From assembly GCA_028281535.1 (NCBI GenBank), contig JANQJS010000025.1:62001-126000 (forward strand): DNA of 64,000 bases, read 5' to 3'. Positions within the stretch are counted from its first letter, which is position 1. Every line of letters starts with the position of its first letter. Under the pieces are notes generated by a model. That model saw only the letters and a list, made by a program, of their open reading frames with translations. It did no database searches and was not told where the DNA came from. Made by a program: the position numbers and the translations under genes. Positions 48,855 through 61,177 of the stretch are shown piece by piece. The stretch comes from Sedimentisphaerales bacterium (GTDB taxonomy: Bacteria > Planctomycetota > Phycisphaerae > Sedimentisphaerales > SM23-30).

Positions 48855-51041
48855 TTAGTCAGAAAGTTTGGGTAAAGCACTTATGCCAATGTCGGTAACG
48901 GTTTCGTCAAATGGACTATTTGGGTCTTTATTAAATTGAATACTAAAGTCTTGCGGCGGTGCATTTAAGTTGGTTCGGCGTATCATGACTTCAAATTCTG
49001 CTTTATCAAAATCGATCGACACACGTCGCAATGGGTTACTTCTGTCACGGAAAATAAAACGATTTGTATCGCCACGTCGTTCAAAGAGTGGGTTATTTGG
49101 ATCATCAGTGACATTAAGGGTTCTTGAGCCCCAATTGATGGTCATGGCCACTCCTGTCAGATCTACATCAGCCATATCGGTTGTGATAGAGCCTCGGACG
49201 GTAAGATTGCGGTTGGTAAAAGAGGTTGGGCGGTCATCGCTGACATAACTAAACCGTTCAACCCTTAAAATATCTTCTTGGTTTGCTTGCAGTGTCAGCG
49301 GGAATGATTTATTATTGAGGGCTGTTCCTGAAGCAATAAATGTTCCTATTGACATATCGACAACGACTGTTGGATCTAATCCTGTTAGGTTAATGTCTCT
49401 CGCATTATATCTGAAAGTACCTTTGTTAAAATCTATTCGCATCGTAACAGTGCCGCCATCGGATGTAGTGCCCTGGAACGAATAGATGGTCATTTTTTTA
49501 TTCGTAGTAAAAGAGTCGAATTCCATCGCAAATTGATGTGGGCCTATGAAAATAGAGATGGTTTCACCGGTTGTTTCATCCTTCGTTAAGGGGAAATCTC
49601 CTGTTAGATTCAAGCGATCTTGCGGATTGGTGCGATCTTTACTTGCTTTGATGGTAATTTCTAATTTAATCAGCTGGTTCGGATCATTAAATAATCGCCA
49701 GCCATTAGCAAGTGTATCAATGTTATTTGGGTCTGTTGATGTATTAAATACTTCTAAAGCTAATCCAAGTGTTGGATGGTACCAGGCCCAGTCTGCCATG
49801 TTTGTTTGATTTGGAACTTCAACCGTACTTACAAGATGGGCTTGGCCATCAAGATTTGGATCAAGATCTAGAAAACCAGGGAAAACTTCAGTGACACTGG
49901 TTAGCTCGGACTGAAAAGCATCGCCGCCTATATCAAAATTAATAATATTGTTGGGGTCATTGAAAGTATTGGGGTCGTTAGGATCGAGAGTAAAGTCATC
50001 ATCAATGAGCTTGAAAAAGAAATTATCACTGGTAAAGTTACTCAGTGGTTGAGCATCAAAGATATTGTTTTTTGAAACAAGAACCTGGCTGTTTTTTTCA
50101 TATTCCAAAACCCAGATATCACCTTCACTATCTTTGGTTAGTGTGATATCAAAACTATCGATTCCCAGATCAGGAACCCCTGTTTGCTGCCATCGCAAGC
50201 CACTTAGATCACCCGTAAATGAGCGGCTGCTGAACGTATGGGTGAAACGATTGCCAGCAAATTGATTTTGCCCGATAAAAATTCTTCGATCACCTGCAGA
50301 AGCTCTGATGAAATCTACATTTGAAAAGTCACCGCTGTTACTTCCGAAAGCAAACGGTGTGAAGAGTGCGTCGTTGATAATTACTGGCGTGTTTGGTTCA
50401 GGAACATCATCAAGCTGTGTGCCATTTGGATCGCCTAATGAAACAACGTTGACCATAGCGATTTCATCGACAACAGATTCTAGGCCATCGACGACTTCAC
50501 CAAATACTGTAAAACGTGGATCACTGGTCCCTTTGCCCGGACATCCTGTTGCTGAGAAATTATCAAGACTCGAGTTATCATCCAAATTTATATAAAACTG
50601 TGATGTGGCTGAGTTTTCATCGCATCCCTGCAATGCCATAGCAACGGTACCTCTGATATTACTTAAGCCATTACCTGCTTCACTATTGATTGGGTCATTA
50701 GGCTCATTAAAGACATTTGGATCTCTGGTCCAAAGTGGGTCTGAAGTGAAGTTGGGGTCGGTACCTAAAATATATAAATTAGGATCATATGCCCCGGCTT
50801 GAATCACAAAAGGATTGGGCTCATTGACGACGCGATGAAAAATGGTGTCATCATAAAAATCGTCTTGAATATAATCGAGTAGATTCGCCACGGTATTCGG
50901 GGCAGCGGCTCCATCCAATGCCATGTCTATATTGCCGAAATTTGTTTCAAATCTGACAATCGTGGTCTGCCCAAAGAGCGTTTTTGAAAATGCCAGAATA
51001 ATCACAAATAAGACAATAGTGGGAATGTTTCGATTCAACAC
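48855..51041 (-). CDS. Secreted cyclophilin-type peptidyl-prolyl isomerase with C-terminal tandem module
   Basis: A 728-residue exported protein. Signal peptide ends near LFGQ (about 25). A cyclophilin domain (about 27-230) keeps the key segments FHRVV (active-site Arg), FVIQAG, GTVAMALQGCDENSATSQFYINL and FTVFGEVVDGLE. A middle beta-rich region with many Asp-Pro-Asn runs (about 230-460) is unassigned. The last 265 residues are the same two-part module as in the FN3-like protein at 27537-30746 (starting EITIKASKDRTNPQDRLNLTG). Likely a periplasmic or surface folding helper. Co-transcribed with tolC. Confidence 0.82.
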   Translation of the reverse strand: MLNRNIPTIVLFVIILAFSKTLFGQTTIVRFETNFGNIDMALDGAAAPNTVANLLDYIQDDFYDDTIFHRVVNEPNPFVIQAGAYDPNLYILGTDPNFTSDPLWTRDPNVFNEPNDPINSEAGNGLSNIRGTVAMALQGCDENSATSQFYINLDDNSSLDNFSATGCPGKGTSDPRFTVFGEVVDGLESVVDEIAMVNVVSLGDPNGTQLDDVPEPNTPVIINDALFTPFAFGSNSGDFSNVDFIRASAGDRRIFIGQNQFAGNRFTHTFSSRSFTGDLSGLRWQQTGVPDLGIDSFDITLTKDSEGDIWVLEYEKNSQVLVSKNNIFDAQPLSNFTSDNFFFKLIDDDFTLDPNDPNTFNDPNNIINFDIGGDAFQSELTSVTEVFPGFLDLDPNLDGQAHLVSTVEVPNQTNMADWAWYHPTLGLALEVFNTSTDPNNIDTLANGWRLFNDPNQLIKLEITIKASKDRTNPQDRLNLTGDFPLTKDETTGETISIFIGPHQFAMEFDSFTTNKKMTIYSFQGTTSDGGTVTMRIDFNKGTFRYNARDINLTGLDPTVVVDMSIGTFIASGTALNNKSFPLTLQANQEDILRVERFSYVSDDRPTSFTNRNLTVRGSITTDMADVDLTGVAMTINWGSRTLNVTDDPNNPLFERRGDTNRFIFRDRSNPLRRVSIDFDKAEFEVMIRRTNLNAPPQDFSIQFNKDPNSPFDETVTDIGISALPKLSD

Positions 51042-53308: not shown

Positions 53309-53929
53309 TTGGAATTTTGCGTTAATATCAAAAAACTTCAGTCACATGATGCGCTTGAAGTCGAACGATGGTTTTTGGCGTATTCGGATAGTGTTTATAC
53401 ATATATTTATTATCGTGTTGGCAAAGATAAGGATTTGGCAGGGGATATTGTGCAAGATGTTTTTCTAAAAGCCTTGGATCAAATTGATCAATTTGATCCA
53501 GATCGCGGTAGGATGTTTGTTTGGTTGACCTGTTTGTCAAAAAACATAATTCGAAAAGCATTATTAGATAAATCACGAAGTTTGTCAGGGAGTTCGAGTC
53601 CTCAGGCAGAAACCCTTGATGATAAGTTATTAAACATTTATGAACGCATTGCAACAGAGCCATTGCCAGACGAAGTTTTAGAGAGGCGTGAGACAGCAGA
53701 GTTGGTACAGATGACTCTGATTAGTATTCCTGGTAATTACAAGGAAGTGTTGGACGAATTTTATTATAAACAAAAAAGCCTTAAAGAGATTTCTATTAAA
53801 TCAGGTGTCACTGAAGGGGCCGCTAAATCATTATTATTTCGAGCCAGAAAAGCTTTTAAAGAATCCTATACGCAATTGGCAACCTCTTTAGGTGTGATTG
53901 AGCTGTCTGGAGGGATATGTGATGAATAA
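53309..53929 (+). CDS. ECF-type sigma-70 family sigma factor
   Basis: A 206-residue extracytoplasmic-function sigma factor. Region 2 (about 20-85) includes WFLAYSDSVYTYIYYRVGKDKDLAGDIVQDVFLKALDQID, and region 4 (about 135-190) includes LISIPGNYKEVLDEFYYKQKSLKEISIKSGVTEGAAKSLLFRARKAFKE. It starts at TTG, with an AGG upstream. It overlaps the FecR-LamG gene by eight bases, and that product is the likely anti-sigma or surface partner. A 26-base perfect palindrome lies within region 2 coding sequence. Confidence 0.9.
   Translation: MEFCVNIKKLQSHDALEVERWFLAYSDSVYTYIYYRVGKDKDLAGDIVQDVFLKALDQIDQFDPDRGRMFVWLTCLSKNIIRKALLDKSRSLSGSSSPQAETLDDKLLNIYERIATEPLPDEVLERRETAELVQMTLISIPGNYKEVLDEFYYKQKSLKEISIKSGVTEGAAKSLLFRARKAFKESYTQLATSLGVIELSGGICDE
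53475..53500. repeat. Perfect 26-bp palindrome inside the sigma factor gene
   Basis: TGGATCAAATTGA followed by its exact reverse complement. Because of it both strands code for the same peptide, LDQIDQFDP. Confidence 0.9.
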
Positions 53930-55613
53930 AGATTGGTTAGATAACAATATCAAGGTGCTTTATCATTCGGTGCCTCGAGAATTGAAATTAGATGCTGTTC
54001 GAAAACGACAAATACTTAATAAAATAAAAGAGCATATCAGTCCTGAAGAAGACCTTCTGCCTAGTACAGTCGAAATATTCCGTGAAAAATTAGAGGCCGA
54101 TCAAAAATTAAAATCTGCAAAAATTGCTGAAGAAAATAAGCAAAAAAGTCAAAAGATTGAGGCTGCTGCCAGAAAGAAATGGGACGATTTTCTCGCAGAG
54201 CAGCGAAAAGATGAATGGTCTTACAATTCGATGCCCGCTGCTTCATTAAAGTGGAAATGGCATATTCCGGGAATATTTTATAAAGGTATTGCAGCTGTGT
54301 TGTTGGTGTCATTATGTCTGTGGCTGTCTTACAATTCGAAGCCTTCGCTTACTGTTGCAAAAATCGTCAGCAGTTATGACACGGTGTGGGATAGAACATT
54401 GAAAACACAAACTGAAGGGATACCGGTAACCACAGAACCAATTAAAATTTTAAGTGGCGTGGTAGAGTTAGAATTTCTACGTGGTGCAAAAGTTCAGTTG
54501 CAAGCACCTGCCGAATTGAAGATTCGATCAGATAATGAAGCGGATTTAGTACAGGGTAAATTGCATGCAACTATCCCGCCGGGAGCAACAGGATTTACAA
54601 TTCATACGCCCCATGTGACGATTGTTGATCATGGTACAGAGTTTGGTGTAGAAGTTAAGGCTAATGGGGACAGTGAATGTCATGTCTTTGAAGGTAAAGT
54701 CAAGTTGCTCCCAGCGGGTTTTCAGCATACGGCATATCCTTATTTGATTACTGGACAAGCTAAGAGGATAAGTCGAGAAGGAGCGATCATGACAGATATC
54801 GCTATAGATGAGGAAAACTATATCGCGAAGATTCCTCAGCCTATTATTCAGGAAATCACCGAAAAGAAATGGGGGAGTTGTTCTTTCTGTTTGAAACAGC
54901 AGGAATTGAAATTAGATCTTCCATTTGCTATAGAGTCAATCAATAATATCACTTTTGTTGATCATCGGCAGGTCTCGTTTGAACAAGACACACCTCCATC
55001 GCCGCATTTGTCGCAAGATTCTTCCGCTTATTTTAGTGATAATGAGAGTTATTTAGTGATTAACCCCAAACAGTCGTCTCTTGATATAGATGAGAATAGT
55101 AGCCGATCATTAGCATTATGGGTCAAGCTGGATGAGTTAGAAACTCAGACGATATTCCATACTCCCGTTGATCTGCGTGAATTTTATGAGTCCTATTTCG
55201 AACCAGTTAACCGTTTGTATGTCCAAAAGAAAAATGACACTGCAATATTTTTGAAATATGATTTTAAGGTTGAGAAAAAACAACTAAAAGATCAAACCAG
55301 GACGTTGCTTTGCCAACTTTCTGATCATGATAATAAGTGGACTCATATTGCTTTGACTATTGAAAATAATCATTGCCTGCGACTGTATGTTAATGGCCTT
55401 TTGGTAGATACCCAGTTTTCTCCTCAAGGTTTTAATATTATTGGTGATACCTCTGAAGAATTTATTTTTGGTAATATTCGACCTCGTCAAAATAATTTTA
55501 AACCTGTAATAAAGAATTCTATTGACGGTTTTTTTGTTTCAGGATTATCACTTTATAATTGTATGTTGACCGAAGATGATGTCGCCTATTTGGCAATGCG
55601 AGATCGTCTATAA
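53922..55613 (+). CDS. FecR-domain membrane protein with C-terminal LamG-like domain
   Basis: A 563-residue protein. The cytoplasmic N-terminus (about 1-120) is helical and charged, followed by one transmembrane segment (IAAVLLVSLCLWLSY, about 125-140). A FecR-type domain lies outside (about 165-265; VELEFLRGAKVQLQAPAEL, FTIHTPHVTIVDHGTEFGVEV, CHVFEGKVKLLP). The C-terminus (about 380-560) is LamG-like (SLALWVKLDELETQTIFHT, WTHIALTIENNHCLRLYVNGLLVDTQ). GGAGGG precedes the ATG at 53922, which overlaps the sigma gene. It likely controls the sigma factor in response to an outside signal, possibly a carbohydrate. Confidence 0.88.
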   Translation: MNKDWLDNNIKVLYHSVPRELKLDAVRKRQILNKIKEHISPEEDLLPSTVEIFREKLEADQKLKSAKIAEENKQKSQKIEAAARKKWDDFLAEQRKDEWSYNSMPAASLKWKWHIPGIFYKGIAAVLLVSLCLWLSYNSKPSLTVAKIVSSYDTVWDRTLKTQTEGIPVTTEPIKILSGVVELEFLRGAKVQLQAPAELKIRSDNEADLVQGKLHATIPPGATGFTIHTPHVTIVDHGTEFGVEVKANGDSECHVFEGKVKLLPAGFQHTAYPYLITGQAKRISREGAIMTDIAIDEENYIAKIPQPIIQEITEKKWGSCSFCLKQQELKLDLPFAIESINNITFVDHRQVSFEQDTPPSPHLSQDSSAYFSDNESYLVINPKQSSLDIDENSSRSLALWVKLDELETQTIFHTPVDLREFYESYFEPVNRLYVQKKNDTAIFLKYDFKVEKKQLKDQTRTLLCQLSDHDNKWTHIALTIENNHCLRLYVNGLLVDTQFSPQGFNIIGDTSEEFIFGNIRPRQNNFKPVIKNSIDGFFVSGLSLYNCMLTEDDVAYLAMRDRL

Positions 55614-55717: not shown

Positions 55718-55900
55718 GCAGCTCGTCATATCTTTTGTTGTACAAGCCGAATGATCTATGCACCATGTTTCCGCGCGCTTACTGAAGATGCCTTTGCTTG
55801 CCTTTCAGTTCTAAAACGAGGTTTCTATTTTGTTTGAAGCCATGTTTGTGTGTGTGTGACGGTGTAAGAAAGATTTAAATCAAGAAAGGAAACAAAAGTT

Positions 55901-58900
55901 ATGAGTAAAAAAAAGAAATGGAGTATGTGTTGGTGGTGGAGAAGTCACTTATGTATGGGGATGATTGTTTTATTAAATTCACAGACGATGGTTCAAGCCG
56001 ATTCCTGGACTTCGCCAGTGGCTACCGGGGTCGAAGCGATTCATATGACCAGTTTGAATACGGGGCGTGTCTTTGTATTTTCATTCCGAGATCAGGGAGA
56101 TGGGGCAACGCAATTCCCCTGGGCAACATTTAATCCTAATAGTTTGGGAAGTGCTAATGTTGTCAATGCTCCTAAGAACTATTTTTGTGCAGGGCATTCG
56201 GTATTGGAAAATGGTGATTTCATCATGACCGATGGTCAGGCGGATGGCACCATCAGTCGATTTAACTCTGTGACTGAACAAATGACCAATCTAGGTAATT
56301 TGGCAGAGAATCAAGGACGTTGGTATCCTTCAACGATCATACTGGGTAATGGTAAACTATTTACCATTGGTGGTATTGCCAATAATGGTGATGGGGGTAA
56401 TGTTTTATCTGCCGAACTGTATGATCCTGATACCAACGCGAGAACAGATATTAATAATGGTAGCAATTTGTTGCCATCACAAGATCCAGATGCCTATCCA
56501 CGTTTATTTCTCTTGTCAACAACCAATGCGAATCCAAATATTTTTGAAGTCTTTCAAGCCGGGCCTGATTCGCAATCACAGTTTTATACCATCAATACCG
56601 ACAATAATTCCGCATCAGTATCTTCAGGTCCTACTGATCCCGGAGCACCAGGTTCAGGAAGTCAGGAGGGGCGTCTGCAAGGTACCTATTGTCGTTTGTA
56701 TGATGGCCGCGTCATGGCGATGGGGGGCTTTCGTTTTGGATTAGAAGATGGTTCGACTTCAACGGTTACCATAATTGATCCAGAAGCGGGAAGTCCTAGT
56801 TGGTCGACCGTTGCTTCCATGCAAGATAGCTCCGATCGATCCTACTTTTTATCTACCGTGATGTCTGATGGAAAGGTTTGCGTCTATGGCCCAGATACTT
56901 CAGTCGAAATTTATAATCCTTCTTCTAACTCATGGAGTGCGGGGGCATCTGCCTCATTGCAGCGTGGATATCACACCGGTGGCGTGTTGCTAGTCGATGG
57001 ACGTATCTGTGTATCTGGTGGTTCCAACCCAGGTGGTCAAGGTGGTTTTGGTGAAACAAACCAAGTGCAAATTTATTCACCCGATTATATGACAGCCAAT
57101 CGTCCCTCCATTACTTCCGCACCGACCTCTGCAGGTTATGGCAGTAATATTGTTGTGAATTATACCTCCACCGGCGGTGCGATTACCGAAGTTCTCCTTC
57201 GTCGTCCAGGTAGTTCAACGCACGGTTTTACCTATAATATGATTGGTGTGCCATGTAGTTTTTCAGATGGAGGTTCTTCTTTAACAGTGACGATTCCATC
57301 GAATCCTAACTTAGTGCCTCCAGGATATTATTATCTTATTATCAGTCGAGGCGGAGCATCTAATCGCATACCGTCTGAGGGTAGTTGGATTCAAATCTCA
57401 GGTAGTGGACCTCCTCCAGATACCAATCCTCCTAGCAGTCCAGCCATTGCTTCTGTGACTTCTGATAGTGATACGCAGCTTACCGCAACCTCTACGACTT
57501 CTACCGATCCTGAAGGTAGCAATCCGATTGAATACGACTTCGATGAAACTACAGGCAATGCCGGTGGTAGTGACAGCCCATGGCAGCTTTCTCAGATTCA
57601 TATCGATACTGGTTTGAATCCTGTTACGCAATATTGCTATCGCGTTCGTGCTCGTGATTCTCAAGGAAATCAAACCGGTTGGTCCAGTGCAACTTGCCAA
57701 ACAACTCAGGCTGCACCGGATACCAATCCTCCAACACCTAATCCAATGACCTGGGCATCACCTCCAGCGGCATTTGGTGATGCGGCGATTATCATGGATG
57801 CCACGAGTGCAGATGATCCGGAAGGTAACATCCCTGTACAATATGATTTTGATGAAACCTCAGGTAATCCTGGTGGTACGGATAGCGGATGGCAGCCCTT
57901 GCCTCGTTATTTAGATGCCGGTTTGGATCCTTCAACGACTTATAGCTATCGTGTTCGTGCTCGCGATAGTTTGGGTAATGCTGGTAGTTATTCAACCACC
58001 TTGTCTGCAACAACCGATGCAGAAGATGGTTATGTTGATGTAATCGTTGGGCCAGGGGTTGTGTTTGATCCACAGCATATAGTGATTAACGTTGGCGACA
58101 CCGTTGAATGGGAATTTGCCGAACTCGATCATAATGTTTGGTCTGGTGTTTCGGGTGGCCATACTGTTCTGGATGGTGAATTACCATGGGAACAAGGTGG
58201 TACTATGATCTTTAGTTCAACCAATGATCCTCTTGTGATCAATCCTGCGGGTACTAAGTTCTTAGTGACATTTGATCAGGCTTTACTTGATGCTTCGACG
58301 GGTGATCTTGGGCCAGATGCTTATAACTATCATTGTCATATTCATGGTACTGGATTACATGATGGTACGATTACTGTTTTAGGTGGTGCAGATAATGATC
58401 CTCCAACACCAAATCCAGCAACCTTTGCATCGGCGCCTAATGCGACCAGTTCAACGTCAATAGCAATGACTGCAACAACAGCCAGCGATGCTAGCGGTCC
58501 AGTTGAATATAATTTCGATGAAACAACAGGTGGTGCAGGCGGTACAGATAGTGGATGGCAAACGTCGACCAGTTATTCTGATGGTGGATTAAGCCCATTA
58601 ACACAATATTGTTATACCGTTCAATCTCGTGATAGTGCTGGTAATACTGGAACCGCTTCAGGTGCGTCCTGTGCTACGACACCAGATGTTCCTAGTGATG
58701 TACTTTTATTAACCGGTTGGGTGACAGGTACATCGCATGCTGATCCGGCTGGTTCTAATCGAGCTTTGGTCTTTACTGTGCATGCTGAAGACGATAATAC
58801 CAATATGAATGCCTCTGTTACATATGGCGGTCAATCGATGACCAAAGTCGTTGAGCAAAATGTTGGTACTGGCTATCGTGCGTATGCCGCGGCCTTTATA

Positions 58901-61177
58901 TTAAATGAAGCAGATATTGCTGCTGCATCTAATAATACTTTTAGTGTCTCTTGGGCGCAAACACCATCGCGTACTCCAGGTTTTGCAAGTATCTTCTTAG
59001 GTAATGTTAATCAAGCAAGCTTAACTGGAGCGACCAGTGGGAATGGTAATACTTCAACAGCAACTGTTTCTTCTGCTGCTCTGTCAACCAATAATGGAGA
59101 TTTAGCAATTGTGGCAGGTACTTGTGGTAATACTGGTAGTTATACGGTCAATAATGGATTCACTGAAGGTACAGAAATTACCGTGACTTCAGGTGATGGT
59201 GTTGTTGGACAGAAACTAGCGACGGGTGCCAATGAGACGCCTAGCATTACACATAGCAATGCCAATCGACAGGTGGTAATTGGTCTTGTCGTTAATGCTG
59301 GTAGTGGTGGCGGTGGTGACACTTCACCTCCAACGCCAAATCCTGCAACTTTTGCTTCAGCACCTTCAGCCACTAGTTCAACAAATATATCCATGACCGC
59401 AACAACAGGTAGTGATGCGAGTCCTCCTGTTGAGTATTTCTTTACAGAACAGAGTGGTAATCCTGGTGGTAGCAATAGCTCATGGCAAACATCCACCAGC
59501 TATAATGATGGTGGTTTATCGCCAAGTACCCAGTATTGTTATACTGTAACGATGCGTGACAGTTTGGGTAATGTCGGTACCGCTTCAAGTTCGTCTTGTG
59601 CGACAACCGATGCGTTGCCAGATACGACACCGCCATCACCGAATCCATCGACATGGGCTTCAGTGCCTACATCAGGTGGTACCAGCTCGATAAGTATGAC
59701 TGCAACCACAGCAAGTGACCCATCTACTCCGGTTGAATATCAATTTGATGAAACTTCCGGTAATGCTGGTGGAACAGACAGTGGATGGCAAACATCATCA
59801 AGTTACACTGATTTAGGTTTGTCTGCAAATACCCAGTATACCTATCGTCAACGCACTCGCGACAGTGCTGGTAATACGGGGTCTTATTCAACGTCACTTT
59901 CTGCAACTACAGATTCTGGTGGTGGATGTGATGTATTATTGAGTGATGATTTTGAAGGTGGAAGCTTTGGTTCTAGTAACTGGAATGATGGTGGTACTGA
60001 TTGCCTGTTCCATAATGGAGCAAATTCTCCTCAAGGCAGTTTTTCTATTAACTTGCAAGATAATACTGCTCCGCCAGCATCAACGAGTTTTACCGATAGC
60101 TTCAATGCTTCATCTTATCAAGATCTGCAGATCGATTGGACTTATCAATGTATTAGTATGGATAATTCCAATGAAGGTTTCTTCTTAGAAGTCTCTACGA
60201 ATGGTGGTTCAAGTTGGACGACGATTGGTGATGAATACAACCTGAATGATGAATTTACCAATAATACCATCGTGAGTGACTCTGTAACGACGTCTGGGAT
60301 TAGCTTGACCAGCAATACGCAAGTACGTTTCCGATGTGATGCGTCAGGTAATGCAGATGATGTCTATCTCGATCAGATAACAATTTCAGGTTGCGGAACT
60401 GGTGGCGGTGGTGATACCGATCCTCCAACGCCAAATCCAGCAACATTTGCATCTGCACCTAGTGCCGATAGCGATATCGCTATTAGCATGACAGCAACCA
60501 CGGCAAGTGATGCTTCTGGTCCAGTTGAATACAATTTCAACCATACCAGTGGAACACCTGGTGGTACGGATAGTGGTTGGCAGACCTCGACTAGTTACAC
60601 GGATAGTGGACTGGCTGCCAGCACGCAATATTGCTACACCGTTCAGTCTCGTGACAGTTTGGGTAATACAGGATCCACTTCAGGCGCCTCATGTGCAACC
60701 ACTCAGGCAGGTGGCGGCGGTGGCCCGATTACGGTTGTTAACCACAGTTTCGAACAGCCAGGTACTGGGAGTGAAATTCTTGGTTTCTCAACAATTCCTG
60801 GTTGGGATGGTACGAACAATAATGAATCAGGTGTGACCACGTTTGATGGTGCCAGTCTTGGTAGTTGGGCTCTTTCTGTCAGTGATTCTGATGAGGCAAG
60901 CCAGGTAACATCACATACGATTGTTGCAAGTACTTACCAAGTTCAAGTGGATGCCAAAGCCGATGGCGGAGCACAGCTAACTATTGAGTTGCGTTACGGA
61001 ACCACAGTGATTGGTTCTCAAACCTATACGCTCAATGGAACTTTCGCCACAAAAACATTAAATGTAACCGTTAATGGTGGTGATCCTGCGATTGGTCAAA
61101 CTTTGAACGTTCGATTTACAAATTCAGGTTCGTTTGATACTTGGTTTGTGGCTGATAACGTACGACTTTCGAATTAA
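55901..61177 (+). CDS. Secreted galactose-oxidase-like copper radical oxidase with FN3-like repeats and a cupredoxin domain
   Basis: A 1758-residue exported protein. Signal peptide ends near MVQA (about 33). Residues 35-500 form a Kelch-type propeller plus DUF1929 domain, and all galactose-oxidase copper and radical positions are present: C96 (FCAG), Y142 (RWYP), Y357-H358 (RGYH) and H441 (STHG). Six FN3-like repeats follow, interrupted by a cupredoxin domain (about 708-830; H744, C812, H815, His820 where Met is usual), a beta domain (about 930-1140) and a jelly-roll-like domain (about 1345-1490). A last beta-sandwich (about 1600-1758) closes it. It probably oxidises alcohols or aldehydes outside the cell, making hydrogen peroxide. 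The sigma/FecR pair upstream may regulate it. Confidence 0.85.
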   Translation: MSKKKKWSMCWWWRSHLCMGMIVLLNSQTMVQADSWTSPVATGVEAIHMTSLNTGRVFVFSFRDQGDGATQFPWATFNPNSLGSANVVNAPKNYFCAGHSVLENGDFIMTDGQADGTISRFNSVTEQMTNLGNLAENQGRWYPSTIILGNGKLFTIGGIANNGDGGNVLSAELYDPDTNARTDINNGSNLLPSQDPDAYPRLFLLSTTNANPNIFEVFQAGPDSQSQFYTINTDNNSASVSSGPTDPGAPGSGSQEGRLQGTYCRLYDGRVMAMGGFRFGLEDGSTSTVTIIDPEAGSPSWSTVASMQDSSDRSYFLSTVMSDGKVCVYGPDTSVEIYNPSSNSWSAGASASLQRGYHTGGVLLVDGRICVSGGSNPGGQGGFGETNQVQIYSPDYMTANRPSITSAPTSAGYGSNIVVNYTSTGGAITEVLLRRPGSSTHGFTYNMIGVPCSFSDGGSSLTVTIPSNPNLVPPGYYYLIISRGGASNRIPSEGSWIQISGSGPPPDTNPPSSPAIASVTSDSDTQLTATSTTSTDPEGSNPIEYDFDETTGNAGGSDSPWQLSQIHIDTGLNPVTQYCYRVRARDSQGNQTGWSSATCQTTQAAPDTNPPTPNPMTWASPPAAFGDAAIIMDATSADDPEGNIPVQYDFDETSGNPGGTDSGWQPLPRYLDAGLDPSTTYSYRVRARDSLGNAGSYSTTLSATTDAEDGYVDVIVGPGVVFDPQHIVINVGDTVEWEFAELDHNVWSGVSGGHTVLDGELPWEQGGTMIFSSTNDPLVINPAGTKFLVTFDQALLDASTGDLGPDAYNYHCHIHGTGLHDGTITVLGGADNDPPTPNPATFASAPNATSSTSIAMTATTASDASGPVEYNFDETTGGAGGTDSGWQTSTSYSDGGLSPLTQYCYTVQSRDSAGNTGTASGASCATTPDVPSDVLLLTGWVTGTSHADPAGSNRALVFTVHAEDDNTNMNASVTYGGQSMTKVVEQNVGTGYRAYAAAFILNEADIAAASNNTFSVSWAQTPSRTPGFASIFLGNVNQASLTGATSGNGNTSTATVSSAALSTNNGDLAIVAGTCGNTGSYTVNNGFTEGTEITVTSGDGVVGQKLATGANETPSITHSNANRQVVIGLVVNAGSGGGGDTSPPTPNPATFASAPSATSSTNISMTATTGSDASPPVEYFFTEQSGNPGGSNSSWQTSTSYNDGGLSPSTQYCYTVTMRDSLGNVGTASSSSCATTDALPDTTPPSPNPSTWASVPTSGGTSSISMTATTASDPSTPVEYQFDETSGNAGGTDSGWQTSSSYTDLGLSANTQYTYRQRTRDSAGNTGSYSTSLSATTDSGGGCDVLLSDDFEGGSFGSSNWNDGGTDCLFHNGANSPQGSFSINLQDNTAPPASTSFTDSFNASSYQDLQIDWTYQCISMDNSNEGFFLEVSTNGGSSWTTIGDEYNLNDEFTNNTIVSDSVTTSGISLTSNTQVRFRCDASGNADDVYLDQITISGCGTGGGGDTDPPTPNPATFASAPSADSDIAISMTATTASDASGPVEYNFNHTSGTPGGTDSGWQTSTSYTDSGLAASTQYCYTVQSRDSLGNTGSTSGASCATTQAGGGGGPITVVNHSFEQPGTGSEILGFSTIPGWDGTNNNESGVTTFDGASLGSWALSVSDSDEASQVTSHTIVASTYQVQVDAKADGGAQLTIELRYGTTVIGSQTYTLNGTFATKTLNVTVNGGDPAIGQTLNVRFTNSGSFDTWFVADNVRLSN

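Follow-up and report, generated by a model that had tools for sequence, protein, structure and literature searches.

Introduction

Copper-radical oxidases (CROs) readily lose the active Cu(II)-radical state, and its recovery requires a one-electron oxidant; Mn(III), ABTS radicals or peroxidases reactivate the enzymes in vitro (PMC10928124). In Colletotrichum a dedicated heme peroxidase activates the CRO via one-electron oxidation (PMC9770985). Outside the laboratory the switching on of CROs is known for a few fungal pairs only and proceeds via a separate heme peroxidase. For GlxA of Streptomyces, the partners Sco and DtpA act in trans, and both copper delivery through Sco and the action of DtpA limit maturation (PMC4736821).

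Here we describe a CRO gene in 64,000 nucleotides of DNA (the window) from a Sedimentisphaerales bacterium, contig JANQJS010000025.1. The identity of the product as a CRO and its fusion to a cupredoxin in a single chain are well supported. We read the protein as an exported CRO of the GlxA/AA5_1 type, probably acting on aldehydes or hydroxy-aldehydes, with a tethered type-1 cupredoxin as redox partner. This reading is evenly poised between right and wrong, with activity, metal content, potentials and the copper-copper distance unmeasured.

Results and Discussion

Organization of the gene and its product

The gene at 55901-61177 on the forward strand was described beforehand as an apparently complete CRO joined to a cupredoxin, and its open reading frame is real and complete (Table 1). 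By eye, the N-terminus has a basic start, a hydrophobic stretch and a VQA-DS sequence resembling a cleavage site. The tail behind the cupredoxin domain includes a Reelin-like domain at approximately residues 1397-1495.

Table 1. Features of the CRO-cupredoxin cassette and location of the laccase-fused paralogues.
Feature	Positions in the window	Strand	Basis or conservation
ECF sigma factor gene, first in the cassette	53309..53929	+	TIGR02937 E=1.1e-20; Sigma70_r2/r4
FecR-type membrane anti-sigma gene with C-terminal LamG/ConA-like domain	53898..55613	+	Laminin_G_3 E=3.9e-11; FecR E=2.3e-8
GTGTGTGTG box and GAAAGGA ribosome-binding site, 5' of the CRO gene	55848..55900	+	comparison of upstream regions
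CRO-cupredoxin gene	55901..61177	+	1758 aa, ATG start, complete ORF
Signal-peptide-like segment, residues 1-33	55901..55999	+	sequence inspection, no predictor
Kelch/galactose-oxidase propeller and E-set, residues 35-500	56003..57400	+	PF09118, Kelch, GlxA 1.2e-29, model, Foldseek
C96, cross-linking Cys (NYFCAGH)	56186..56188	+	kept in 31/31 copies covering the position
W141-Y142, second-sphere Trp and cofactor Tyr (GRWYPST), AA5_1/GlxA arrangement	56321..56326	+	32/32 copies
Y357, axial Tyr, and H358, Cu ligand (QRGYHTG)	56969..56974	+	H358 in 31/31 copies covering the position
H441, Cu ligand (SSTHGFT)	57221..57223	+	31/31 copies covering the position
Two FN3-like spacer domains, about residues 508-706	57422..58018	+	domain search, model
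Cupredoxin domain, residues 708-832	58022..58396	+	domain search, model, fold matches; 31 copies in genome
H744, predicted type-1 Cu ligand	58130..58132	+	30/30 aligned copies
H754, extra invariant His	58160..58162	+	30/30 aligned copies
H811-C812-H813-I-H815, predicted Cys and His ligands and two extra invariant His	58331..58345	+	30/30 aligned copies
H820, axial position	58358..58360	+	Met in 23/30 copies, His in 7/30
Tail of FN3-like and other beta domains	58412..60715	+	domain search
C-terminal HpiC1-like beta-sandwich, residues 1609-1757	60725..61171	+	PF22825 E=4.8e-13
Laccase-fused paralogues L043, L028, L044, L034			genome G000, contigs C17, C53, C39, C53, respectively

The copper-radical oxidase domain

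The best match of the N-terminal part among solved structures was GlxA from Streptomyces lividans (4unm; phmmer, 1.2e-29). In the alignment C96 corresponds to the Cys of LFCTGH, Y142 to ARWYP, Y357-H358 to RNYHSG and H441 to STHVTD. The preliminary description had assigned the copper and radical site to exactly these five residues, and each indeed stands opposite its GlxA counterpart. The Pfam GO-like_E_set model (PF09118) matched above its cut-off (E=1.9e-17) and Kelch motifs were present. The NCBIfam GlxA model (NF052501) gave E=5e-38 and 130.8 bits, below the equivalog cut-off of 800, so by this cut-off the protein does not qualify as a GlxA equivalog. The curated cut-off of Glyoxal_oxid_N (PF07250) was not reached (23.1 vs 37.5 bits).

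An AlphaFold2 model of residues 35-832, based on an alignment of 16 paralogues, had a mean pLDDT of 83. Its 27 best PDB matches in a Foldseek search were galactose oxidases, fungal alcohol oxidases, GlxA and FgrAldOx; the best matches were all CROs with E values of 1e-26 to 1e-21. Structural prediction, which had been suggested as a check on the propeller, thus places it with the CROs. That the five residues cluster in space is inferred from the alignments, without coordinates.

All five positions are kept in 26 of the 32 paralogues found in the genome (see below). Two of the others are truncated or broken and keep the positions that they cover, and the remaining four, which are fused to a laccase-type oxidase, are the only copies in which Y357 is replaced by Asp or Glu. 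As judged from this retention the residue set is not due to chance, and the earlier proposal of an intact CRO site is upheld by both the GlxA alignment and the paralogues, with activity untested. Because the axial Tyr is lost, the CRO part of the four laccase-fused copies may be altered or dead. This loss, together with the broken sites of the planctomycete relatives L058, L059 and L061, could also mean that the window propeller itself is an inactive binding or structural Kelch domain with relic residues. We consider that very unlikely: the 26 copies, which are 37-79% identical to the window copy, retain all five positions under a low dN/dS of about 0.1-0.18 in the propeller, and in the broken relatives several site residues are missing together.

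The consecutive Trp-Tyr in the second sphere is the arrangement of AA5_1 and GlxA (PMC13094651). Given W141-Y142, small aldehydes seem more probable substrates than galactose, an inference for which activity remains to be tested; galactose is disfavored by the same pair but not excluded.

The cupredoxin domain

Residues 708-832 are, according to the model and the conserved residues, a cupredoxin of the plastocyanin type with H744, C812 and H815 as the predicted ligands; copper binding is inferred. The PF00127 match of the window copy was weak (E=0.005, 17.7 bits, below the 21.2-bit cut-off), and two paralogues scored 37.7 and 42.1 bits. The cupredoxin part of the model had a pLDDT of 87 and matched plastocyanin with Z 11.9 over 96-99 residues and an rmsd of 2.3 over 96. 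The structural prediction that had been proposed for this region too thus returned a plastocyanin-like Greek-key fold. Fold and ligands, the latter invariant in all 30 aligned copies, bear out the claim of a genuine cupredoxin in the same chain as the CRO.

The axial ligand varies among cupredoxins. The window copy lacks the axial Met and has a His there, as do six other copies. In multicopper oxidases a His pair flanking the Cys leads to further coppers, and the window cupredoxin resembles these enzymes in having two His around its Cys.

These features bear on the main rival to a redox role, namely that the cupredoxin loads copper from within the chain, capturing scarce extracellular copper for the CRO site and replacing the Sco/ECuC route of Streptomyces GlxA. 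Copper delivery limits GlxA maturation, as noted above (PMC4736821). The extra invariant His residues H754, H811 and H813 would fit such a function, and the tolerance for either Met or His at the axial position suits metal binding better than a tuned potential. The only Sco of the genome adjoins COX1 and may serve the respiratory oxidase. A genome without Sco would have favored copper loading, but this was ruled out by the Sco that was found; its position near COX1 neither requires nor excludes copper loading. Cupredoxins are usually electron carriers, the laccase present in the same chain of some paralogues would remain unexplained, and one copy manages without a cupredoxin. We therefore regard copper loading as unlikely, though it is the alternative to be taken most seriously.

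A family of paralogues in one genome

The genome (4.44 Mb, 99.4% complete) carries 32 members of this CRO gene family (the search gave 33 matches because one gene is split), with propellers about 35-79% identical to that of the window copy. In 59 relatives belonging to its family and order no CRO genes were found, and similarity there did not go beyond Kelch fragments. Elsewhere in the phylum, eleven further genomes with CROs had one to four matches apiece.

Cupredoxins of the window type number 31 in the genome, every one of them inside a CRO-family chain; the one on C9 lies at a contig start in a copy whose tail is truncated by the contig end. The domain lies near residue 700 in most copies; two have it at about 810, one at 1139 and four at about 1280. 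The distance from the propeller ranges from about 200 to 800 residues with other domains inserted between, which shows that the cupredoxin was retained despite insertions before it. In C5:6435-10139 (L030:6438-10139) the CRO site is intact and PASTA-like domains replace the FN3-cupredoxin part. One CRO-cupredoxin copy on C43 (L045:6669-10118) is broken by a stop as well as a frame change, so that C43:92491-94117 and C43:90668-92494 are pieces of a single gene.

For close pairs, NG86 dN/dS was about 0.05-0.18 for the propellers and 0.02-0.25 for the cupredoxins, with many dS values near saturation. Purifying selection acts on both domains. Chance or decay of the domains was ruled out by the low dN/dS, with the same reservation about several dS values. 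Joint retention of CRO and cupredoxin after duplication is partly a matter of inheritance.

Four giant paralogues of 2250-2950 aa (L043:5066-13906, L028:6209-14368, L044 and L034) have a multicopper oxidase located after the FN3 pair and before the cupredoxin. The full set of multicopper-oxidase motifs (HLHG, WYHDH, HPMHMH and HCHxxEHEDHEM) is present in each, and the four form one well-supported clade. They account for all but one of the five strong laccase-type matches in the genome; the fifth is a separate gene with a dockerin-like segment.

Since the chains differ so much, the modules might be independent, brought together by domain shuffling in a repetitive, FN3-rich family of surface proteins, with a cupredoxin that only binds copper or is structural. 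The tails are highly variable and include PASTA, F5/8, 3-keto-disaccharide hydrolase and HpiC1-like domains, and in one copy the cupredoxin itself has been replaced. It is, however, the sole downstream domain retained in nearly all copies, its ligands are invariant, and a fusion in the opposite order occurs in another family. Independence of the modules thus appears quite unlikely.

The 3-keto-disaccharide hydrolase domain (PF06439, E=1.9e-22) is found in the CRO-cupredoxin paralogue L039:3660-9584 on C60, hinting at oxidized sugars as substrates. A pair of exported proteins recurs 3' of several CRO genes (L021:10423-13749, L024, L039, L046, L033 and L048); their domains are LamG-like or unknown, and they end in dockerin-like sequences (DFNxDCxVNLLDF).

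Regulation and neighborhood of the cassettes

The order of ECF sigma factor, FecR-LamG anti-sigma factor and CRO gene on the same strand recurs in at least 21 of the 32 paralogues. In three further cassettes the sigma gene is present, with masked sequence at the anti-sigma position. The sigma factor in the window is of an ECF type unlike that of the other cassettes. Upstream of the CRO genes GTGTGT occurs in 25/32 and GAAAGGA in 21/32 regions, and the two possibly form a common control element. At 48855-51041 on the reverse strand the window also encodes an exported cyclophilin-type peptidyl-prolyl isomerase joined to a long beta-rich tail.

Relatives elsewhere in the phylum

The window-type cupredoxin was not found beside other planctomycete CRO propellers within the flanks examined. 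A different arrangement occurs in a genome of another family of the phylum (G434), where the only CRO gene begins with a cupredoxin-like domain carrying the motif H...C-x2-H...M. This domain was first recognized through its ligand motif and belongs to another subfamily than the window type; the ligands are conserved among five copies, the profile match with window-type cupredoxins was borderline (86.8% probability) and PF00127 was not reached. The locus (L099:2567-15730) has genes for a multicopper-oxidase-like protein, a multi-cupredoxin protein and the cupredoxin-CRO fusion in a row. Just 5' of the CRO gene are a gene with at least three cupredoxin-like domains and a 2065-aa multicopper-oxidase gene bearing one more such domain, whose product recalls the Mn-oxidizing multicopper oxidases. 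The opposite domain order argues for a fusion that arose separately, with no tree behind this inference.

Related propellers in three further genomes (L058, L059 and L061 in G238, G374 and G196) have lost the Cys, the cofactor Tyr and one His together and, to judge by these residues, are natural inactive relatives. A contig scan with two cupredoxin peptide patterns gave one weak cupredoxin (L050, Chthoniobacterales), not a CRO; since only cupredoxin patterns were used, the scan says little on diverged fusions. Plasmid records gave propeller matches only, none of which reached 80% of the query.

Proposed role of the tethered cupredoxin

In the reading that we prefer, with the cupredoxin as redox partner, the CRO would act outside the cell on aldehydes or hydroxy-aldehydes, and the FN3 spacers would tether the type-1 copper domain to it. 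One-electron traffic between the two coppers is inferred, as is the electron-relay role of the cupredoxin. The domain could oxidize the inactive Cu(II) state, which lacks the radical, by one electron and thereby make or remake the Tyr-Cys radical. Alternatively, it could stand in for O2 and drain the Cu(I) state, in which case water rather than peroxide would be formed. The electrons would then reach O2 via a laccase, in cis in the four giant paralogues, or via another acceptor. Each cassette would be switched on by its own ECF sigma/FecR-LamG surface-signaling pair, which is likewise inferred.

Several observations count in favor of a tethered redox partner. No PF00141 or DyP peroxidase was detected in the genome by searches that both find positives in control genomes, so that no heme peroxidase partner was found at another locus, and CROs need a one-electron oxidant. 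A heme-copper oxidase, COX1, is present. Support also comes from the multicopper oxidase in four chains and the position of the G434 fusion beside multicopper-oxidase and multi-cupredoxin genes, and from the confinement of all 31 cupredoxins to CRO chains, in which they are kept despite variable spacing.

Other observations are harder to reconcile with a relay. The FN3 spacers may keep the CRO and the cupredoxin apart, and the copy with an intact CRO site and no cupredoxin also counts against it. By analogy with azurin variants, an axial His should lower the potential. The window cupredoxin should thus be a poor oxidant for a radical of the glyoxal-oxidase type, and the axial His favors draining of Cu(I) over activation, or else copper loading.

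More broadly, we tentatively propose, while considering it short of probable, a self-contained family of extracellular oxidases that carry their own one-electron partner in the chain (a cupredoxin, in some also a laccase). Activation or the full path to O2 would lie within the chain, most of the 32 loci would answer to an ECF sigma/FecR-LamG sensor of their own, and the linkage would have arisen separately in another planctomycete. The candidate partners are all copper proteins, and they are fused to the CRO in a genome without the peroxidases of the fungal pairs. Activation or copper loading becomes testable by mutating one domain of a single chain. The 32-copy amplification, with a sigma/anti-sigma pair for most copies, suggests a substrate-by-substrate oxidation program at the cell surface.

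Comparison with known systems

The preliminary description knew the combination from no described system, and this stands within the open literature searched: no CRO fused to a cupredoxin or multicopper oxidase was found there, most subscription papers being outside its scope. The parts are individually known, and their combination, amplification and regulation appear not to be. GlxA of Streptomyces lividans and S. coelicolor (4UNM, NF052501) shares the five site residues and the Trp before the cofactor Tyr with the window protein, but it has neither a cupredoxin nor an FN3 tail, and it works with CslA. AldOx of Fusarium and the other AA5_1 glyoxal and aldehyde oxidases share the consecutive Trp-Tyr (PMC13094651) and match in fold (9n3u), whereas they are fungal, lack a cupredoxin and are activated by separate peroxidases or chemical oxidants.

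Plastocyanin and the purple cupredoxin 5fc9 have the fold and the His, Cys, His pattern of the window domain (Z 11.9 and 11.1), which differs from them in the two His flanking the Cys, the extra invariant His and the axial His. The multicopper oxidase of Nitrosopumilus maritimus (9cck) has a C-terminal cupredoxin in cis, like the four large paralogues, and this domain matches the window one (Z 10.6), but there is no CRO in the protein. The tandem peroxidase-AlcOx of Colletotrichum (PMC9770985) pairs a CRO with a dedicated one-electron oxidizing partner; there the partner is a heme peroxidase from a separate gene, whereas the candidate in the window protein is a copper domain in the same chain.
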